Virus record (IMG/VR): IMGVR_UViG_3300035183_000545
Span: 1-29,616 of that record
DNA from: a virus
Direction: 5' to 3' (one strand)
DNA length: 29,616 nucleotides
Each line of letters begins with the position of its first letter. The stretch's first letter is position 1. Made by a program: the position numbers and the translations under genes. This document shows, piece by piece, positions 12,675 to 29,475 of this stretch. The notes beneath the pieces were generated by a model that did not search any database, was not told the DNA's origin, and was given only the letters and a program-made list of their open reading frames with translations.

Positions 12675-13712
12675 ATGACCAACGACACCGATACCGCCGA
12701 TACCATCCTCGCCACGACAACCCATGCCGTCGCGTCAACGTGCATGAAGGCACGTCTTACCACGTCAGCCTTTGGCGTCCGTCAGCATGACAAGGCCCTG
12801 GGCAGCAACGTTGCGTTGCAGGCCGGCGCGGATGCGACCGCCGTTTCCGTTTCACTGAACAAACTGGCGGGGGCGGACGAAGCGCACAAGCTCATGGTCA
12901 GCCTCCAAGCCGCCGCGCGTGGCATCCTCTACGAGTACACGTCCCCTTGGGATGCGGCGTGGCGCCTGCTGCCGGCGACGTCCTTCGACGCCATGGCGCG
13001 TGCCATGGCGAGCGTTCAGACCGAGTTTCAATCCGCGTTGGAAGAGTTGCGCGCGGCGGCGCCCGATATCATCCGCCGCGCCTCCGCTGCGCTCGGGCCG
13101 CTCGCCGCGCGCGTGAAACTGCCGTCCCCCGAGGAGCTGGGCGAGGCGTATAGCCTGCGCGTGGACTACGCGCCGGTCGAGACCGCCTCGGCGGCGGGGT
13201 TCCCCGGCGTGCCGCGCGTTGTCGCGGAGCGCCTGGCCGAGTTGATGGAAGCGCGGGCCAAGGCACAGATTGCCGAGGCGCTGCGCGATACACGCGAGCG
13301 TCTTTCGCATTCGCTGCACACCATGGCGGCTCGCTTGGCTGAGTACGACGCGCGCGAGGACGCCAAGAACGCGGACCCTGACTATAAATCGCGCAAGGGG
13401 GTGTTTAGGGACTCGCTGGTGAGCAATCTGGAAGATAGCCTCGCACTGGCGTCATCCATGGTCGCTGCCATTCCCGGCGCCGACCCGCTGCTGGAAGAGG
13501 CCTGCGCGCGTACGCGGCGCCTGCTCGCCGATCTGCGCGCGGCAAGCGCCCGGCTGACCGTCGGCTCCGCCCCGGCGCCGTCCTTGGCGGCTGTGCTGCG
13601 CGAGGATGCCGTGGCGCGGCACGCGGCGCGCCGCGCCGCCGAGGATGCCGCCGCGTTGGGCGGAGACAGTGTTGCCGCGATCATGGAAGCGTTTACGGGG
13701 GTAGCGGCATGA
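12675..13712 (+). CDS. Conserved phage protein of the ATPase/VWA module, 345 aa
   Basis: ATG 12675 follows GGGAGAG. It is a mostly helical, Ala/Arg/Leu-rich protein. The segment ARLTTSAFGVRQHDKALG, then YTSPWDAAWRLLPATSF (residues about 87-103) and FRDSLVSNLEDSLALASSM matches a phage family I recall with 'S....R..D', 'PWD..wRLLPa' and 'FRDSLV.NL', usually encoded just before a MoxR ATPase and a VWA protein and sometimes labelled DUF3150-like. No enzyme motif is visible; helical partner proteins in such modules may be adaptors or substrates. It overlaps the next gene by ATGA. Confidence 0.82.
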   Translation: MTNDTDTADTILATTTHAVASTCMKARLTTSAFGVRQHDKALGSNVALQAGADATAVSVSLNKLAGADEAHKLMVSLQAAARGILYEYTSPWDAAWRLLPATSFDAMARAMASVQTEFQSALEELRAAAPDIIRRASAALGPLAARVKLPSPEELGEAYSLRVDYAPVETASAAGFPGVPRVVAERLAELMEARAKAQIAEALRDTRERLSHSLHTMAARLAEYDAREDAKNADPDYKSRKGVFRDSLVSNLEDSLALASSMVAAIPGADPLLEEACARTRRLLADLRAASARLTVGSAPAPSLAAVLREDAVARHAARRAAEDAAALGGDSVAAIMEAFTGVAA

Positions 13713-13993
13713 TCGCGAAGAACCGTGTCACCAAGGAAGCGTTCCTTGCGGCCTACGAAGCCCGCCTGCGCGGCTTGGTGGGCGCGCATGACGGGCACAT
13801 TCCCGGCTTTCTCGCGCAAGTACGCGCGGCGATTTTCTCGCAGGCTAAGCGCGCGCCGTGGTCCCCCGTCACTGACACGGCGTACGCAGCGTGGCGCGAT
13901 GCGGGCGGGACCGGGGAAATCTCGCTGGACCGCCTGCGGAGGCTGCCGGACGGCGCGCCGCCTGCTCATGCAACCCTGAATGTGGAGGACTGA
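13709..13993 (+). CDS. Small protein in the ATPase/VWA module, 94 aa
   Basis: ATG 13709 overlaps the previous stop (ATGA). The protein starts MIAKNRVTKEAFLAAYEARL and contains helical GFLAQVRAAIFSQAK, then AYAAWRDAGGTGEISLDRLRR. It has no membrane segment or enzyme motif. Position between the helical partner protein and the AAA+ ATPase, with coupled translation, suggests it works with them. The family is not recognised. Confidence 0.78.
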   Translation: MIAKNRVTKEAFLAAYEARLRGLVGAHDGHIPGFLAQVRAAIFSQAKRAPWSPVTDTAYAAWRDAGGTGEISLDRLRRLPDGAPPAHATLNVED

Positions 13994-13996
13994 CCT

Positions 13997-15127
13997 ATGT
14001 CGTTGTTTTCGCAAATTACCCTCTCGCCGGCGGAAGTTGAGGAATGGCTGCCTCGGCTGGCGCTTCTCAATTTGGAGGCGCGCGCGTCCGTCGAGATTGT
14101 CGGACCGCCCGGATGCGGCAAGTCAGAGATTGCCTTCAGCTTGGCGAAGGCAATGACAGAAAAGACGGGCAACCGATGGGCAATGGCCGTGGCGCACGCC
14201 GCGCGCTACACGCCAACCGACACGTTGGGCTTTATGATCCCTCGCCAGCGTGAGGGCGGAATGCTTGTGTCGTCTTTCACTGCCCCCCCTTGGGCGCATG
14301 TGCGTGAGGACGACACATGGGTGTTCGATCACGAGTACGGCGTGTTGGTGCTGGAAGAGTTTGGGCAGGCGGAGCCGGACACAAAGAAAGCGCTGGCGGA
14401 GTTGCTGCTGGAAGGCCGGCTTGGGCCACACTGCCTGCCGCGTGGCTGGTTTATCGTGGCCACGTCCAATCGGGCGCAGGATCGGTCCGGGGTGACGCGG
14501 GACCTTGATCACGTGCTGAATAGGATAACGCGGGTGCACATGCGACCGGACCCCGACGCTTGGGAGCAATGGGCGGTGCGCGCGGGGGTGCCGACCATCG
14601 TCATTTCTTTCGCGCTGCGCAACCCACAAATAGTGTTTGAGGGCGAAGTACCGAAGGAGCCGGGTCCTTGGGCGACGCCACGCTCGCTCGTACGCGCGGC
14701 GCGCAAGCTGGAGGCGTTCATGCCGCGCCTGGCGGACGGTGCGCTGGACGTCCGCGAAGGGCTTGACGGTGCCCTGTTCAATCTGATCGCGGGCGATATC
14801 GGCGAGGGCGCCGCGCACCAGCTGAACGCGCATATGAGGCTTGTGACGCAGCTTCCGTCGCTCGACGACGTGCTCGCCGCCCCCGGCGCCGTGGACGTGC
14901 CTAGCCGGCCCGATTTGCAAATGCTGCTGGTCTATGAAATGGCAGCGAAAGCGACCCCGGCCAACATGGATAAGCTGCTGACCTACATGCGCAGGCTGCC
15001 ACGGGAGTTTGCGGTGGCGTTCGCGAAGGCAGCAGTGGGCTACTCGCCGAAGGTGCTGCTGACCACGTGCATGACGCAATTTGTTGCGGAAAACTCGGTG
15101 CTTATGGCAGCCATGGCGAGGAAATGA
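13997..15127 (+). CDS. MoxR-type AAA+ ATPase, 376 aa
   Basis: Walker A GPPGCGKS is at 36-43. The Walker B region is GVLVLEEFGQAEPD (115-128), with Glu-Glu at 120-121 where Asp-Glu is usual. Sensor 1 is ATSNRAQD (155-162), and a basic region with DHVLNRITRVHMRPD follows. The short N-terminus and immediate pairing with a VWA-domain gene are typical of MoxR ATPases, which act as chaperones or remodellers on a target recruited by the VWA partner. GGAGG lies about 8 nt before ATG 13997. The last base pairs overlap the VWA gene start (ATGA). Target and purpose in the phage are unknown. Confidence 0.9.
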   Translation: MSLFSQITLSPAEVEEWLPRLALLNLEARASVEIVGPPGCGKSEIAFSLAKAMTEKTGNRWAMAVAHAARYTPTDTLGFMIPRQREGGMLVSSFTAPPWAHVREDDTWVFDHEYGVLVLEEFGQAEPDTKKALAELLLEGRLGPHCLPRGWFIVATSNRAQDRSGVTRDLDHVLNRITRVHMRPDPDAWEQWAVRAGVPTIVISFALRNPQIVFEGEVPKEPGPWATPRSLVRAARKLEAFMPRLADGALDVREGLDGALFNLIAGDIGEGAAHQLNAHMRLVTQLPSLDDVLAAPGAVDVPSRPDLQMLLVYEMAAKATPANMDKLLTYMRRLPREFAVAFAKAAVGYSPKVLLTTCMTQFVAENSVLMAAMARK

Positions 15128-16392
15128 CAAACATGTATAACGTAGTTTCTGGCGCGAAGCGTACGCATGATCGGCTGACTGCCTTGAAGGGTCGGCTTTT
15201 GGTGGAGCAAGCGTTCTTTAGCTACATGCTCTACTCTACCACGCGCTTGCGTGTAGTGAATGACGCTTCATTCACTCACGTTGCCGCAACGGACGGATAC
15301 AATATCCTGCTGAACGAAGATACATTCTTCGCGATGCAGCCATCAGAACAGATATTCGTGCTGGCGCATGAGTTGCTGCACGTCGTATTCGATCACTGCG
15401 GGCAATCCAAGCGATACGCCGAGGCGGGCGGCATCGCGTATCAGGACGGAGTGACGCTGCCATTTGATAGACGCTTGGCGAACGTCGCGCAGGACGCGGT
15501 AATCAACAAGATACTGGACGATGCGCGCGTCGGGACCATGCCACGCGGCGGGGTGTTCTTTCCGTTCGTGTCAGCTGCTGACGGTTGGGTGGACGTGTAC
15601 CGCACCCTGTTCAAGGATGAGAAAGCTGGCGGCGCCCCCCGGCTGGGCTTAGAACGGCCCTTCGACGAACATATGGACCCGGCGGACGTGCCGGACGATG
15701 GCGAAGAGGCGCCGCCGCGCCCCTCGCCGGCGCAATTGGCCGGTGCGGTGCGGGAAGCCATGGCGCGGGCGAAAGCCCATGGCACGCTGCCTGCTGCCTT
15801 GGAGCGGGCGCTAGGGGGCGCGGCGGCGCCCCCCGTGGACTGGCGGGAAGTACTCCGCGCCAGCGTCCAGCGCGTGCTCGGCACGGGGGCGTATTCATGG
15901 GAGAGGCCGGACCGGCGGATGCTGGCGCGGGGGGCGCGCGATTTAAGCCGGATGGTGGTTGCGCCTGGCCGGGCGGGGCGCAGGGTGGGCGGCATCGTGA
16001 TTGCGGTCGATACGTCGGGGTCCGTGGCGCCCGCCGTGCTGGACGTGTTCGCGGCGGCAATGTCTGATATCTTGTCCCAAGCGCGCCCGGCATGGGCGGA
16101 CATTTTGTGGTGCGATGCCGCCATAGGCGCGCATCATCACGTAACCGACCCGGACGGGTTGCGGGACGTGCTGGCGCAGCCGGTCCCGGGTGGGGGCGGG
16201 ACGGACTTCCGCCCGGTGTTCGGGTGGGTCGAAGCGGCACACGCGCGCCCGGACGCGGTGGTGTATTTGACTGACTTGTACGGCACGTTTCCTGCGCATC
16301 AGCCGGACGGCGTGCAGACTATCTGGGCATCCATTTCGCGCAACGCCGCTCCGCCCTGGGGCGAGTTTGTGTTCCTGGATATGAACCAATAG
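15124..16392 (+). CDS. DUF2201-like zincin + VWA protein, 422 aa
   Basis: The N-terminal domain has AHELLHVVFDH (81-91), an HExxH zinc-metallopeptidase motif with a third His. The C-terminal domain is a VWA fold with a complete metal site: DTSGS (296-300), Thr in GGGGTDF (360) and Asp in YLTDLYG (384). This is the DUF2201 layout, normally paired with a MoxR ATPase as here. Between them lies an acidic, Pro-rich linker (residues about 180-205). It could be a protease or a metal-dependent substrate adaptor for the ATPase. ATG 15124 overlaps the ATPase stop; ATG 15133 has better spacing to GAGGA and is an equally good start. Confidence 0.9.
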   Translation: MTNMYNVVSGAKRTHDRLTALKGRLLVEQAFFSYMLYSTTRLRVVNDASFTHVAATDGYNILLNEDTFFAMQPSEQIFVLAHELLHVVFDHCGQSKRYAEAGGIAYQDGVTLPFDRRLANVAQDAVINKILDDARVGTMPRGGVFFPFVSAADGWVDVYRTLFKDEKAGGAPRLGLERPFDEHMDPADVPDDGEEAPPRPSPAQLAGAVREAMARAKAHGTLPAALERALGGAAAPPVDWREVLRASVQRVLGTGAYSWERPDRRMLARGARDLSRMVVAPGRAGRRVGGIVIAVDTSGSVAPAVLDVFAAAMSDILSQARPAWADILWCDAAIGAHHHVTDPDGLRDVLAQPVPGGGGTDFRPVFGWVEAAHARPDAVVYLTDLYGTFPAHQPDGVQTIWASISRNAAPPWGEFVFLDMNQ

Positions 16393-25400: not shown

Positions 25401-26402
25401 ATGGCTCAACTTCCCGCTATCCCCAATCTGGGCGCTCCGCCGGCGGTGTTTGCGTCGGCACCAGCGTCTGACGAATGGTCAGCCGGGGTCCAGGGCGGCT
25501 TCCCAGTGCTCAGCGTGCGCGGCAAGGTGTTCCGCATGAAGCACGACGGCGAAGAGCGGCCTATCCTGCGGCCAGGCACTGCGGACGCCGCGTCGTCCAT
25601 CGACGTTATCCTGGTGCAGGCAAACCGCGCCGTGAGCAAGGTGTATTACAAGGATAAGTTCGTCGAGGGAGAAGGCGAGTCCCCTACTTGTGCGTCGTCG
25701 AACGGCGTTACGCCGGACGCTGGGGTGCCGGAGCCGCAGTCGCGTACCTGCGCGGCGTGCCCCCATGCCGTGTGGGGGAGCGCCCACACCGATTCCGGCA
25801 AGGCGGCAAAGGCGTGCTCCGACACGCGCCGTGTCGCGGTGTTGCCGCTTGGCGATCTCGACCATGCAGTTATCCTCTTGCGGGTCCCTCCGACCAGCTT
25901 GGCAAACCTGAAAGCATACAGTTCGCTGTTGTCCACCGTCGGGCATCAGCCGCATACTGTGGTTACGCGGCTGGGGTTTGACATCAATGTCGCGTTTCCA
26001 AAGCTGACCTTCACGCCGGTGCGGGCGTTGACCGACGAAGAGGCGCAAGAAGTCGCTGCGCTTCGCGGCAGCGAGGAAGTGCTCACGGTCCTCAGCGCCC
26101 CTGTGCCGAGCGACGGCGAGGTCCCTGTGTCCGCCTCCGCGCCGGCGCCGGCGCCCGCTCCTGCGCCCGCGCCTACTATCGCACCTGCGCCCGCGCCTAC
26201 TATCGCGCCCGCTCCTGCCACGGCCACACTAGGCCGTCCGACGCGCAGGAAGGCGGCTGCTCCGGCGGCTGCTCCGGCGGCTGCTCCGGCGGCTGCTCCG
26301 GCCAGGTCGCCGAGTGCGCCAGCGCAGGCGCAAGAGCCTGTTACCGCTCCTACTGATCTGGATAACCTCCTGTCCCAGTTGGGGTTCGGCCAGCCCGAAT
26401 GA
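25401..26402 (+). CDS. Putative ssDNA-binding-like Cys-rich protein with Ala/Pro tail, 333 aa
   Basis: AAGGAG is 11 nt before ATG 25401. Residues about 30-110 contain strand-like FPVLSVRGKVFRMKHDGEE and SIDVILVQAN, then C-x-x-C TCAACPHAVWGS and KAACSD-like KAAKACSD, likely a zinc site. Residues about 235-305 are low complexity (APAPAPAP; four AAAPA repeats), ending in DLDNLLSQLGFGQPE. A folded core, a Cys site, a flexible linker and a short acidic-hydrophobic tail recall phage ssDNA-binding proteins, and the location between helicase and primase agrees. That function is inference. Confidence 0.72.
   Translation: MAQLPAIPNLGAPPAVFASAPASDEWSAGVQGGFPVLSVRGKVFRMKHDGEERPILRPGTADAASSIDVILVQANRAVSKVYYKDKFVEGEGESPTCASSNGVTPDAGVPEPQSRTCAACPHAVWGSAHTDSGKAAKACSDTRRVAVLPLGDLDHAVILLRVPPTSLANLKAYSSLLSTVGHQPHTVVTRLGFDINVAFPKLTFTPVRALTDEEAQEVAALRGSEEVLTVLSAPVPSDGEVPVSASAPAPAPAPAPAPTIAPAPAPTIAPAPATATLGRPTRRKAAAPAAAPAAAPAAAPARSPSAPAQAQEPVTAPTDLDNLLSQLGFGQPE
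26253..26300 (+). repeat. 12-bp tandem repeat, four units
   Basis: GCGGCTGCTCCG is repeated four times in frame, encoding AAAP units of the linker in the Cys-rich protein. Preceding bases at 26140-26220 carry irregular CCGGCGCC/CCTGCGCC repeats encoding Ala-Pro. Confidence 0.85.
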
Positions 26403-26409
26403 CAAACTC

Positions 26410-26435
26410 CGCCGCCCCGCCGGAGCGGGGCGGCG
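26410..26435 (+). other. GC-rich hairpin before the primase-helicase gene
   Basis: An 11-bp perfect stem CGCCGCCCCGC with loop CGGA starts 7 nt after the Cys-rich gene stop and ends 16 nt before ATG 26452. No U-run follows. It could lower primase translation or stabilise the upstream message. Confidence 0.6.
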
Positions 26436-26451
26436 CCCAGCGGGGGCGGCT

Positions 26452-29400
26452 ATGGACGAAGCGGAACAGATAACTGTATTCGCGCAGACGGTGCTTCCGT
26501 TTGCGCCCGACGGCTGGGTGCAGATATGGCGCAAAGACGGCGCCTCGGACAGGGGCATGTGGCGCGATACGTCGCACCACAACATGCACTCGCTGGTCGC
26601 GCGGGTCCTGGAGCTTAACAAGAGCGCCGGGGCGCCCAGGTGCACTTATGTCTCAATGGCGCGTATGGCCTCGGAGCGGCGGCGCCTGGCCGAGCAGGCG
26701 CTCGCGCTGCGGGCGTTGTGGCTGGACTGCGACATCAAGCCAGACGGGTTCGCGTCGTTTGAGGCCATAGCCGCCGCGCTGCGCAGTCTGACAGGTGCTG
26801 GCTGGCCCGTGCCGTCGCTGCTCATGCGCAGCGGGGGCGGGGTACAAGTATTCTGGGGCCTGCGCGACGAGCTTTCCGTCGAGGAGTGGCGACCGCTGGC
26901 GGACGGGCTAAAGCGAATGTGCCAGGCGCTCAATCTGGCGTGTGACCACAACGTCACCGCCGACGCGGCGCGTGTCATGCGGATGCCCGCGACGTGGAAC
27001 ACGAAATACTCTCCGCCGCGCCGCACCGAGTTGCTTACCGGGACGACAACGCCGCCGTTGTACGGCCCGCAGGACTTTTTGCATCACATATCCAAGTTGC
27101 AGCCCGCCCCGGTCGCGCTCAAGCCGCTCAGCCAGTTGGCCCCTTACGCGGCTAAAGTCGAGCCTGACCCGGACTATATGACTTCTCCGGCGCGTGAGCC
27201 GGTCTCCGCCCCAGCACTGTTCAAAGCGTGCCGGCTGTTCGCGCAGGCGCTCACGGCGGGGGTGTGGCCCGGCTCGGGGTGGTACATGCCGGCGCGTAAT
27301 TTGGCAGCGGCGCTGGGCGAGCGTGGGCGCGCCATTTATCATAGGATGAGCCATAATTGGGAGGACCTCGCGACCGGCAAGAAGTATTCCGTAGCGGACA
27401 CGGATGCCAAGTACGACGCGGCGTTGCGGCTAGTCGCCACTGACCCTGACCGCGCGCCCATTTCCTGCTACGCGCTCAGCGAAGATAAGCCGGACGCCTG
27501 CGCTGGGTGCGCTTACGCCGACCGCCGCGCGCCGGATAGTTCATTCAACAACCTGATGGCCGCTCGGGACTACGCCAGAGAAGAGGCTGCGCGTGAGTTG
27601 GCGCGCCCAGTGCCCGTCGCGGAAGGCTGGGTGAGCCATGCGCTGCCGCTCGGCTACTATGTGGACCCGCAGACCAAGACGACAAAGATAGACAAACAGG
27701 GCGAGAAAACTACCCGCCAGGTTACTGTGCTGAACGGGGTTATCGTTGGCGCGGAGCTTCGATCCACACCGAGCGTAAACGCAGCGGGCATGCCGTCATC
27801 ATCGTCTGTGTTGCACTGCGACATAATGACCGGCGATCAGATAGTGCGTGGGCTGGGCTTACCGCTCGCGGAGTTGAGTGGGATTAAGTTGTGGAACGAG
27901 CTAGCCCGCGTGGGAGCGCCTATCGAGACGAAAGACCGCGCAGAAACAGAGAAGTTTATCATGGCGTTCGTGCGACAATTGCAGGCCGCGAGAAGCGCGG
28001 GCACGGCAGCGCGTGAAGGCACCTACGCGCTCGGATGGACGGAGACTGGCGGGTTTACGTACGACGGGGTTGTTTACGAAGAAGGCTCAGCGCCACGGGT
28101 TGGCCTGCACTTGCCGCCCGACCAGAGGGGGCTGATCGGGTCGGCTGGCACTTTGGAAACGTGGTGTGCTGGCGTTCAGCCATTTCTTGAGTTCCGTGAC
28201 CCTGCTTTGTGGTCGCTGTTCCTGGCGGGGTTTGGCGGCCCGCTCGTGCCGCTGCTTACTGGGCCAGTTCGCGGGGCTACTTTGTGCGTGTACGGGGAGG
28301 GCGGCAGCGGTAAATCCACGGCAGCGGCTTGGGGGGCCAGCATCTACGGCGATCCGAAAGCCCTGATCCTGTCTGGAGACTGGAGTCCGGCGGGGGCTAC
28401 GCGGCGAGCGGCCACGTTGCGGCACATACCCTGCTATGTGGACGACATAGGCAAGCGGCGCGGGAAGTCCGCGCAGCAGGGCATGGCGGACGGGCTGGGC
28501 AACATGATCAAGTCCGTGAGCGAAGGGCAGATAGGGCTTAAATTGCGCAGGGACGGCACGGAGCGCGGCAACGCGCATTTTTCCGGCATTTTGCCGATAG
28601 CCCTCAACCAACCTTTGTCCGAGTTGATATCCATCAGTGCGATGGACGAGTTGACCGCCACCATCATGGACAGAGTAGTGGACTTGCGCACCCACACCAG
28701 CGGAAAATACGCTGGCACGCCGGACACTGCGTTGTACGGAAGCAACTATGGTGTTGCCGGTAGGCCATACATACGGCACGTAGCGGAGAACCGTAGCCGC
28801 TATGCTCATATGATAAACCACACGCGCGATGTCCTGTTGGCCGCCAACGGCAATAACACGCAAGATAGGTTTATAGCCTCTCTGTTCGCGGCGCTCATTG
28901 TCGGCGGGTTGGCGGCTAAGGCCAGCGTCTTACCGAGCCTGGACATGGAGTGGTACACGCGCCAAGTTCCTCAACTATGGCGCGGCGCGATGAGCGTTCG
29001 CGCTATGCTGGCGCCAATGCGCAATAACCAACTCGGCGCAGAAGCGATATTGTCCGAGCTTATCGCTTTGGCGACTAAAGACAATACGTTTGCTGTAATA
29101 ATGTCCACTGCGCTCAGCCCGCAGGGCAATCCGGGCACGTGCCATATGCCTGCCATTTACTCTCAGGTGCGCTCGCTCACCATAGAGCATCGCGTGTTCG
29201 GCACGGGCCAGCACTCCATCGTGGTCATATCGCTCGATGGGCTGCGCAGGATGGCCCCCGCTCTGGGCATGGGAGCGACTGAAGTAGTGGAAGTCCTGAA
29301 GCGCAATTTCGGCGCTACGCAGACCAAGCGCCGGCTGGGCGCTGGGACGGCCATTGGGGCGGGGCTAGGGCGTCGAGACGTGCTAGTAATAGATTGCGCG

Positions 29401-29475
29401 CACCCCGCCATGGCGTGGTATAAGGCGACGCTACAGGATGTTGCGCAAGACGGAGCAACTGCTGACCAAGTTTAA
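26452..29475 (+). CDS. Primase-helicase (AEP-like primase + DUF927-like ATPase), 1007 aa
   Basis: The N-terminal third has archaeo-eukaryotic primase motifs: ALWLDCDIK (Asp92, Asp94), SLLMRSGGGVQVFW (123-135) and CDHNVTADAARVMRMP (164-179) followed by ATWNTK. A Cys group (Cys339, Cys350, Cys353) could bind zinc. The C-terminal half is a DUF927-like ring helicase ATPase with Walker A GEGGSGKST (615-623), a Walker B-like CYVDDIG (661-667) and sensor FSGILPIALNQ. Together these prime and unwind at the fork, with the polymerase in the same operon. The frame opens upstream, but ATG 26452 with GGGGG before it is the natural start. Confidence 0.9.
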   Translation: MDEAEQITVFAQTVLPFAPDGWVQIWRKDGASDRGMWRDTSHHNMHSLVARVLELNKSAGAPRCTYVSMARMASERRRLAEQALALRALWLDCDIKPDGFASFEAIAAALRSLTGAGWPVPSLLMRSGGGVQVFWGLRDELSVEEWRPLADGLKRMCQALNLACDHNVTADAARVMRMPATWNTKYSPPRRTELLTGTTTPPLYGPQDFLHHISKLQPAPVALKPLSQLAPYAAKVEPDPDYMTSPAREPVSAPALFKACRLFAQALTAGVWPGSGWYMPARNLAAALGERGRAIYHRMSHNWEDLATGKKYSVADTDAKYDAALRLVATDPDRAPISCYALSEDKPDACAGCAYADRRAPDSSFNNLMAARDYAREEAARELARPVPVAEGWVSHALPLGYYVDPQTKTTKIDKQGEKTTRQVTVLNGVIVGAELRSTPSVNAAGMPSSSSVLHCDIMTGDQIVRGLGLPLAELSGIKLWNELARVGAPIETKDRAETEKFIMAFVRQLQAARSAGTAAREGTYALGWTETGGFTYDGVVYEEGSAPRVGLHLPPDQRGLIGSAGTLETWCAGVQPFLEFRDPALWSLFLAGFGGPLVPLLTGPVRGATLCVYGEGGSGKSTAAAWGASIYGDPKALILSGDWSPAGATRRAATLRHIPCYVDDIGKRRGKSAQQGMADGLGNMIKSVSEGQIGLKLRRDGTERGNAHFSGILPIALNQPLSELISISAMDELTATIMDRVVDLRTHTSGKYAGTPDTALYGSNYGVAGRPYIRHVAENRSRYAHMINHTRDVLLAANGNNTQDRFIASLFAALIVGGLAAKASVLPSLDMEWYTRQVPQLWRGAMSVRAMLAPMRNNQLGAEAILSELIALATKDNTFAVIMSTALSPQGNPGTCHMPAIYSQVRSLTIEHRVFGTGQHSIVVISLDGLRRMAPALGMGATEVVEVLKRNFGATQTKRRLGAGTAIGAGLGRRDVLVIDCAHPAMAWYKATLQDVAQDGATADQV

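Follow-up and report, generated by a model that had tools for sequence, protein, structure and literature searches.

A candidate ternary protein-remodelling machine of phages and plasmids, comprising a DUF3150-like protein, a MoxR-like ATPase and a zincin-VWA protein

What would a phage remodel with a MoxR-like AAA+ ATPase and a partner that carries both a metallopeptidase-like zincin domain and a VWA domain? The question is raised by positions 12675-16392 of a 29,616-base virus fragment from IMG/VR (the whole fragment is hereafter the window), where four open reading frames (ORFs) on the + strand lie in one run, with neighbours overlapping by 4 nucleotides (nt) or lying 3 nt apart. A preliminary description of this DNA had read the run as four coupled genes, which the present gene calls bear out, and had listed virion maturation among the possible purposes. 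Phages were already known to carry the ATPase/zincin-VWA pair, as gp24/gp25 in N4 (PMC4193335, PMC7650795) and in jumbo phages as well (PMC7824862). Analysis of related loci showed that the pair is accompanied there by a helical protein, and the evidence leans slightly towards the following three genes encoding one protein-remodelling machine of mobile elements.

12675..13712, + strand: DUF3150-like helical protein, the third component, 345 residues; TxPWD...RLLP and FRDSLVxN motifs conserved; matched by a profile built without the window
13997..15127, + strand: MoxR-like AAA+ ATPase (AAA_5), 376 residues, N4 gp24 homologue; Pfam AAA_5 and PHROG_1297
15124..16392, + strand: zincin-VWA protein, 422 residues, N4 gp25 homologue; DUF2201_N metallopeptidase-like and DUF2201 VWA domains by Pfam, PHROG_1314

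The first two parts, the ATPase and the zincin-VWA protein, are known, whereas their third partner, although constant, does not seem to have been described before; no mention of DUF3150 was found in the open-access literature searched.

A divergent DUF3150 relative linked to the ATPase/zincin-VWA pair

Neither Pfam nor PHROG gave a match for the 345-residue protein, no phage match was obtained, and its comparison with PF11348 (DUF3150) gives nothing even at an E-value of 10, so the Pfam cut-off is not reached. A tblastn search against plasmids returned two matches (E-values of 1e-4 and 2e-4) on Rhodovastum atsumiense plasmids, in which the homologues sit exactly between an AAA ATPase gene and one for a DUF2201 VWA protein. 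PF11348 is matched by 22/26 members of the helical protein family, and a profile of the family built without the window sequence matches the 345-residue protein with an E-value of 8.5e-39 (127 bits vs. 5.2 for the best of 2000 shuffles). The window copy is the most divergent of the 54 compared. It is called here a divergent DUF3150 relative rather than a Pfam-defined member because it lies itself below Pfam detection.

The counts of co-occurrence of the three genes refer to the DUF3150 clade that is closest to the window. IMG/VR scans with the single 345-residue or VWA protein gave no matches because the sequences are too divergent, and alignments covering the full set of 11 phage pairs proved too heterogeneous for a scan. 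An alignment of the window protein with its two plasmid homologues found 185 viral contigs, of which the best 80 were kept for the counts. Among these 80 viral loci, which were fetched with the helical family alone, the complete triad is present at 73, and at the remaining seven the contig ends next to the helical gene. A first scan of bacterial genomes (A5) found none, and a second (A9) found nine loci, all nine with the three genes. A second survey, which covered 385 alphaproteobacterial genomes, showed the three genes at 5/5 loci, from four further genomes, and all seven triad plasmids inspected have all three. The genes of 78 triads are always on the same strand within a median span of 3.4 kb (maximum of 4.6 kb) and occur in three orders (51, 17 and 10 triads). 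Thus, the linkage is kept while the gene order changes. The distance matrices of the three proteins also correlate (r of 0.88-0.91, 0/2000 permutations), a correlation to which shared ancestry contributes.

Phage early genes often remain neighbours by descent, and the helical gene and the pair could be linked merely through a shared conserved early region without any common function; the lack of a helical gene in the phages RHph_TM3 and L012 would fit such a case. However, the linkage is retained in all three gene orders, on both phage and plasmid replicons and at genome loci with otherwise different neighbours, and this explanation is very improbable.

Separately, the collected loci include three phages with different named hosts, MinM2, Pag-Yong1 and Pra-JY27 (L099, L009), whose records agree in length (65,014 bases) and in triad match; a single phage may lie behind all three names. 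The triads of Cupriavidus and Burkholderia plasmids are preceded, at a distance of a few kb, by genes of a PRTRC/ThiF-type cassette (L117:1-1255 and L100:665-1483).

Conserved active sites of the ATPase and the zincin-VWA protein

The ATPase matches PHROG_1297 (E-value of 2.3e-59) and Pfam AAA_5 (PF07728, 31.8 bits vs. a cut-off of 22). The features of AAA_5 proteins, Walker A and B, the sensor 1 Asn and conserved arginines, are present, with the Walker B Asp replaced by Glu. As in MoxR-like ATPases, its gene is paired with that of a VWA-domain protein, and the closest solved structure to its profile is midasin (E-value of 1.8e-36). The zincin-VWA protein matches PHROG_1314 (E-value of 8.9e-66), PF13203 (DUF2201_N, 97.8 bits vs. 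a cut-off of 23.2) and PF09967 (DUF2201, 83.3 bits vs. a cut-off of 26.4). The label 'HNH endonuclease' of PHROG_1314 was rejected for this protein; it stands in many phage records too and looks like a propagated misannotation, because the domains found are DUF2201_N and the DUF2201 VWA domain. The active sites of the two proteins are located as follows.

14102..14125, + strand: Walker A, GPPGCGKS, ATPase residues 36-43; K42 in 91/91 scored homologues
14342..14359, + strand: Walker B, VLVLEE, ATPase residues 116-121, with Glu in place of Asp; D in 84 and E in seven homologues
15367..15396, + strand: zincin metal motif HExxHxxxxH, HELLHVVFDH, residues 82-91; metal residues invariant in 11 phage homologues
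16009..16023, + strand: MIDAS, DTSGS, residues 296-300; the site is completed by Thr360 (16201-16203) and Asp384 (16273-16275)

An alignment of 11 phage pairs (A1) showed that P38, G39, G41, K42, E121, N158, R176 and R229 of the ATPase are invariant, as are the MIDAS residues of the partner. The Walker B Glu of the window ATPase is common to six other loci. In the larger set, D296, S298, S300 and D384 of the MIDAS are invariant in 86/86 scored homologues and T360 is kept in 85. The zincin HExxH is also kept in nearly all loci. However, it is degenerate at three loci (L013, L049 and L050) and on one plasmid (L101), indicating that the zincin site has apparently been lost repeatedly in relatives. 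The MIDAS is intact at L013, L049 and L050, the three that were scored. Loss of the zincin site with retention of the MIDAS would separate a remodelling function from a protease function.

The Pfam and PHROG matches and these motifs confirm the earlier assignment of a MoxR-type ATPase and of a protein with both HExxH and a complete MIDAS. The same description took the two intact metal sites as a sign of an active machine. Both sites are indeed intact in the window, but the losses listed above take the zincin site out of that argument in some relatives, and the MIDAS is kept wherever it was scored among them. Decay of the module in relatives, which had been named as evidence against an active machine, is not observed: hardly any change is seen in the residues of the ATPase and the MIDAS across ~90 loci. 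As judged by sequence comparison, the components are homologous, their catalytic residues are conserved and the three genes are linked near-obligately in this DUF3150 clade.

Genome context and possible targets

One end of the window encodes the portal, the major head protein and the terminase, and the other a DNA polymerase, an exonuclease and an SNF2-type helicase. The sequenced phages nearest to it are those of the Rhizobium phage RHph_TM3 group (portal 53% and polymerase 37% identical), not N4. The placement of the locus on the replication side is shared with relatives, a DNA polymerase gene following the pair or the triad in six genomes (the window, RHph_TM3, L012, CRP-7, Presley and N4). 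Many triad viral loci have VRR-NUC, polymerase or exonuclease genes downstream and the terminase on the opposite strand; at 31 loci, the terminase is ~4.6 kb away. The plasmid triads adjoin VirB4/type IV secretion system, PRTRC or ParB-like genes, several such plasmids are typed conjugative, and their annotated stretches contain no virion genes. A tentative proposal is that the triad is a ternary AAA+ machine not described before, common to phages and conjugative plasmids, which would remodel a complex of the host or of replication that any incoming DNA encounters; it would usually also cut this complex, its protease domain being optional.

Several observations weigh against a single three-gene machine. 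The sister phages RHph_TM3 and L012 have the pair but no detectable DUF3150 relative, so that either the third gene can be dispensed with in some phages or it has diverged past detection. No DUF3150 relative is detectable in the records of N4, Presley, phiFa, CRP-7, S-TIM5, PA5oct, G and RaK2 either, which is a difference between the window and both N4 and the jumbo phages PA5oct, G and RaK2. A tree of the concatenated ATPase and VWA proteins showed that pair-only and triad lineages are interspersed and that the sisters of the window are pair-only. Thus, the third gene was probably lost or gained more than once, or it diverged past detection. Conversely, DUF3150 also occurs without the pair on a Candidatus Manganitrophus plasmid (L102:4854-7876), where its neighbours are a different AAA+ ATPase (PF00004), DUF1257 and DUF2997, and the MoxR/zincin-VWA genes are absent; DUF3150 may serve AAA+ ATPases more generally as an accessory. 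Finally, the pair lies near virion genes in S-TIM5 and RaK2, and the record of the PA5oct ATPase bears an electrospray ionization tandem mass spectrometry (ESI-MS/MS) note.

Neighbours of the pair elsewhere were considered as DUF3150 candidates and rejected: gp569 of phage G gives only coiled-coil matches, and the neighbours in phiFa and L012 match nothing.

The S-TIM5, RaK2 and PA5oct records also speak for a chaperone-protease of virion assembly or maturation, which would remodel and cleave structural proteins during capsid or tail assembly. Iyer et al. 2021 (PMC7824862) describe, in group 2.2 jumbo phages, a MoxR ATPase and a vWA domain fused to an N-terminal metallopeptidase, and suggest such a role for this pair on the analogy of the MoxR-vWA proteins of Acidianus two-tailed virus. 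However, the same triad adjoins type IV secretion or PRTRC genes on conjugative plasmids without virion genes in the annotated stretches, the N4 pair belongs to a middle rather than a late transcript (PMC4193335), and the locus is on the replication side in the window and many relatives, with the terminase on the other strand as noted. Virion assembly is therefore unlikely as a general role, and virion maturation, one of the purposes first suggested for the module, is disfavoured accordingly.

A second alternative is counter-defence or host takeover. If the triad dismantled or cleaved a defence or nucleoprotein complex of the host, one that every incoming DNA meets, its presence on both phages and conjugative plasmids would be explained. 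The patchy spread over phages and conjugative plasmids (the triad is rare in bacterial genomes, 5/385 alphaproteobacterial), the middle or early location in phages and the high divergence of all three window proteins are in line with such a role. However, N4 gp24 and gp25 belong to the set of 14 core genes given for N4-like phages (PMC4193335), and their core status across many hosts (also PMC7650795) is more readily expected of an essential function than of an accessory gene against defence; a literature search found no essentiality data for N4 gp24/gp25. PADLOC, which covers defence genes with anti-defence outside its coverage, gave weak generic ATPase matches only, and neither an effector nor an inhibitor signature was found. 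Counter-defence is thus possible but rather doubtful. A defence-system origin was rejected, as the PADLOC matches are only weak P-loop matches.

Comparison with known systems and proposed mechanism

The pair of the window is closest in kind to two phage pairs. N4 gp24/gp25 belong to the same two families (PHROG_1297 and PHROG_1314), are adjacent and precede replication genes; their alignment with the window proteins showed shared invariant residues but only 20-24% identity. The jumbo-phage pair has the same domain architecture as the window pair but is described as a pair, with no third component named in the available part of the article (PMC7824862).

Systems outside this group share parts of the design. 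In midasin/Rea1, as is proposed here for the triad, an AAA+ ring and a MIDAS domain remodel a large complex. It is a single giant eukaryotic polypeptide that acts on pre-60S ribosomes and is not known to carry a zincin. NorQ/NorD, CbbQ/CbbO and RavA/ViaA act on cellular enzymes; their VWA proteins are not known to have a zincin domain, nor the pairs a DUF3150 partner. They resemble the triad in that a MoxR-like ATPase and a VWA partner remodel a target, and they provide a model of mechanism: in NorQ/NorD, the ring acts on the VWA partner via a finger in its pore and remodels a NorD linker needed for metal insertion (PMC13036017). The MoxR-vWA ternary conflict systems, which are concentrated in multicellular bacteria and have variable effectors, are alike in having a dedicated third component (VMAP, iSTAND, FtsH, beta-propeller; Kaur et al. 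2020, PMC7159879). However, those components appear to differ from the DUF3150-like protein. A Pfam scan of the third protein showed no VMAP-C, iSTAND, FtsH or beta-propeller, although some such domains may lack a Pfam model.

We infer that the three proteins form a complex in which ATP-driven movement and proteolysis are directed at a target complex. By analogy with NorQ/NorD and midasin, on which the steps are modelled, the MoxR-like ring would hydrolyse ATP and move the docked zincin-VWA protein, whose MIDAS metal would clamp an acidic side chain on the target complex. The DUF3150-like helical protein would serve as a dedicated adaptor or lever. The N-terminal zincin domain would cut the remodelled target in most lineages and be dispensable in some. 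The target would more likely be a protein complex that incoming DNA needs or encounters (in replication or maintenance, or a host nucleoprotein) than the capsid. The constant third partner and the presence on conjugative plasmids shift the plausible functions of N4 gp24/gp25 away from capsids.

Other features of the window

The fourth ORF of the run separates the DUF3150-like gene from the ATPase gene.

13709..13993, + strand: 94-residue ORF; coding-like composition, no relative

The GC content at third codon positions is of a coding type in all four ORFs (0.75-0.80), and the GC content of the 94-residue ORF by codon position is 0.71/0.55/0.78. This ORF has no Pfam, PHROG or NCBIfam match, and a phmmer search against 5057 ORFs of the collected loci found only itself. 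Of the two helical partner genes in the preliminary description, the 345-residue gene stands by its linkage across loci, whereas the 94-residue ORF has no homologue and is unsupported as a component of the module.

The zincin-VWA gene most likely starts at the ATG at 15124 rather than at the GTG at 15067 of the mechanical ORF. An ATGA overlap (15124-15127) joins the stop of the ATPase gene to this start.

Near the end of the fragment, a 1053-residue ORF (26314-29475) has a DUF927 domain scoring 31.3 bits, above the cut-off, and is possibly a primase/helicase-type protein. Among the polymerases of the relatives, the 962-residue DNA polymerase ORF of L012 (L012:10014-12902) contains an insertion of >300 residues, apparently intein-like, in comparison with the window and RHph_TM3 polymerases.

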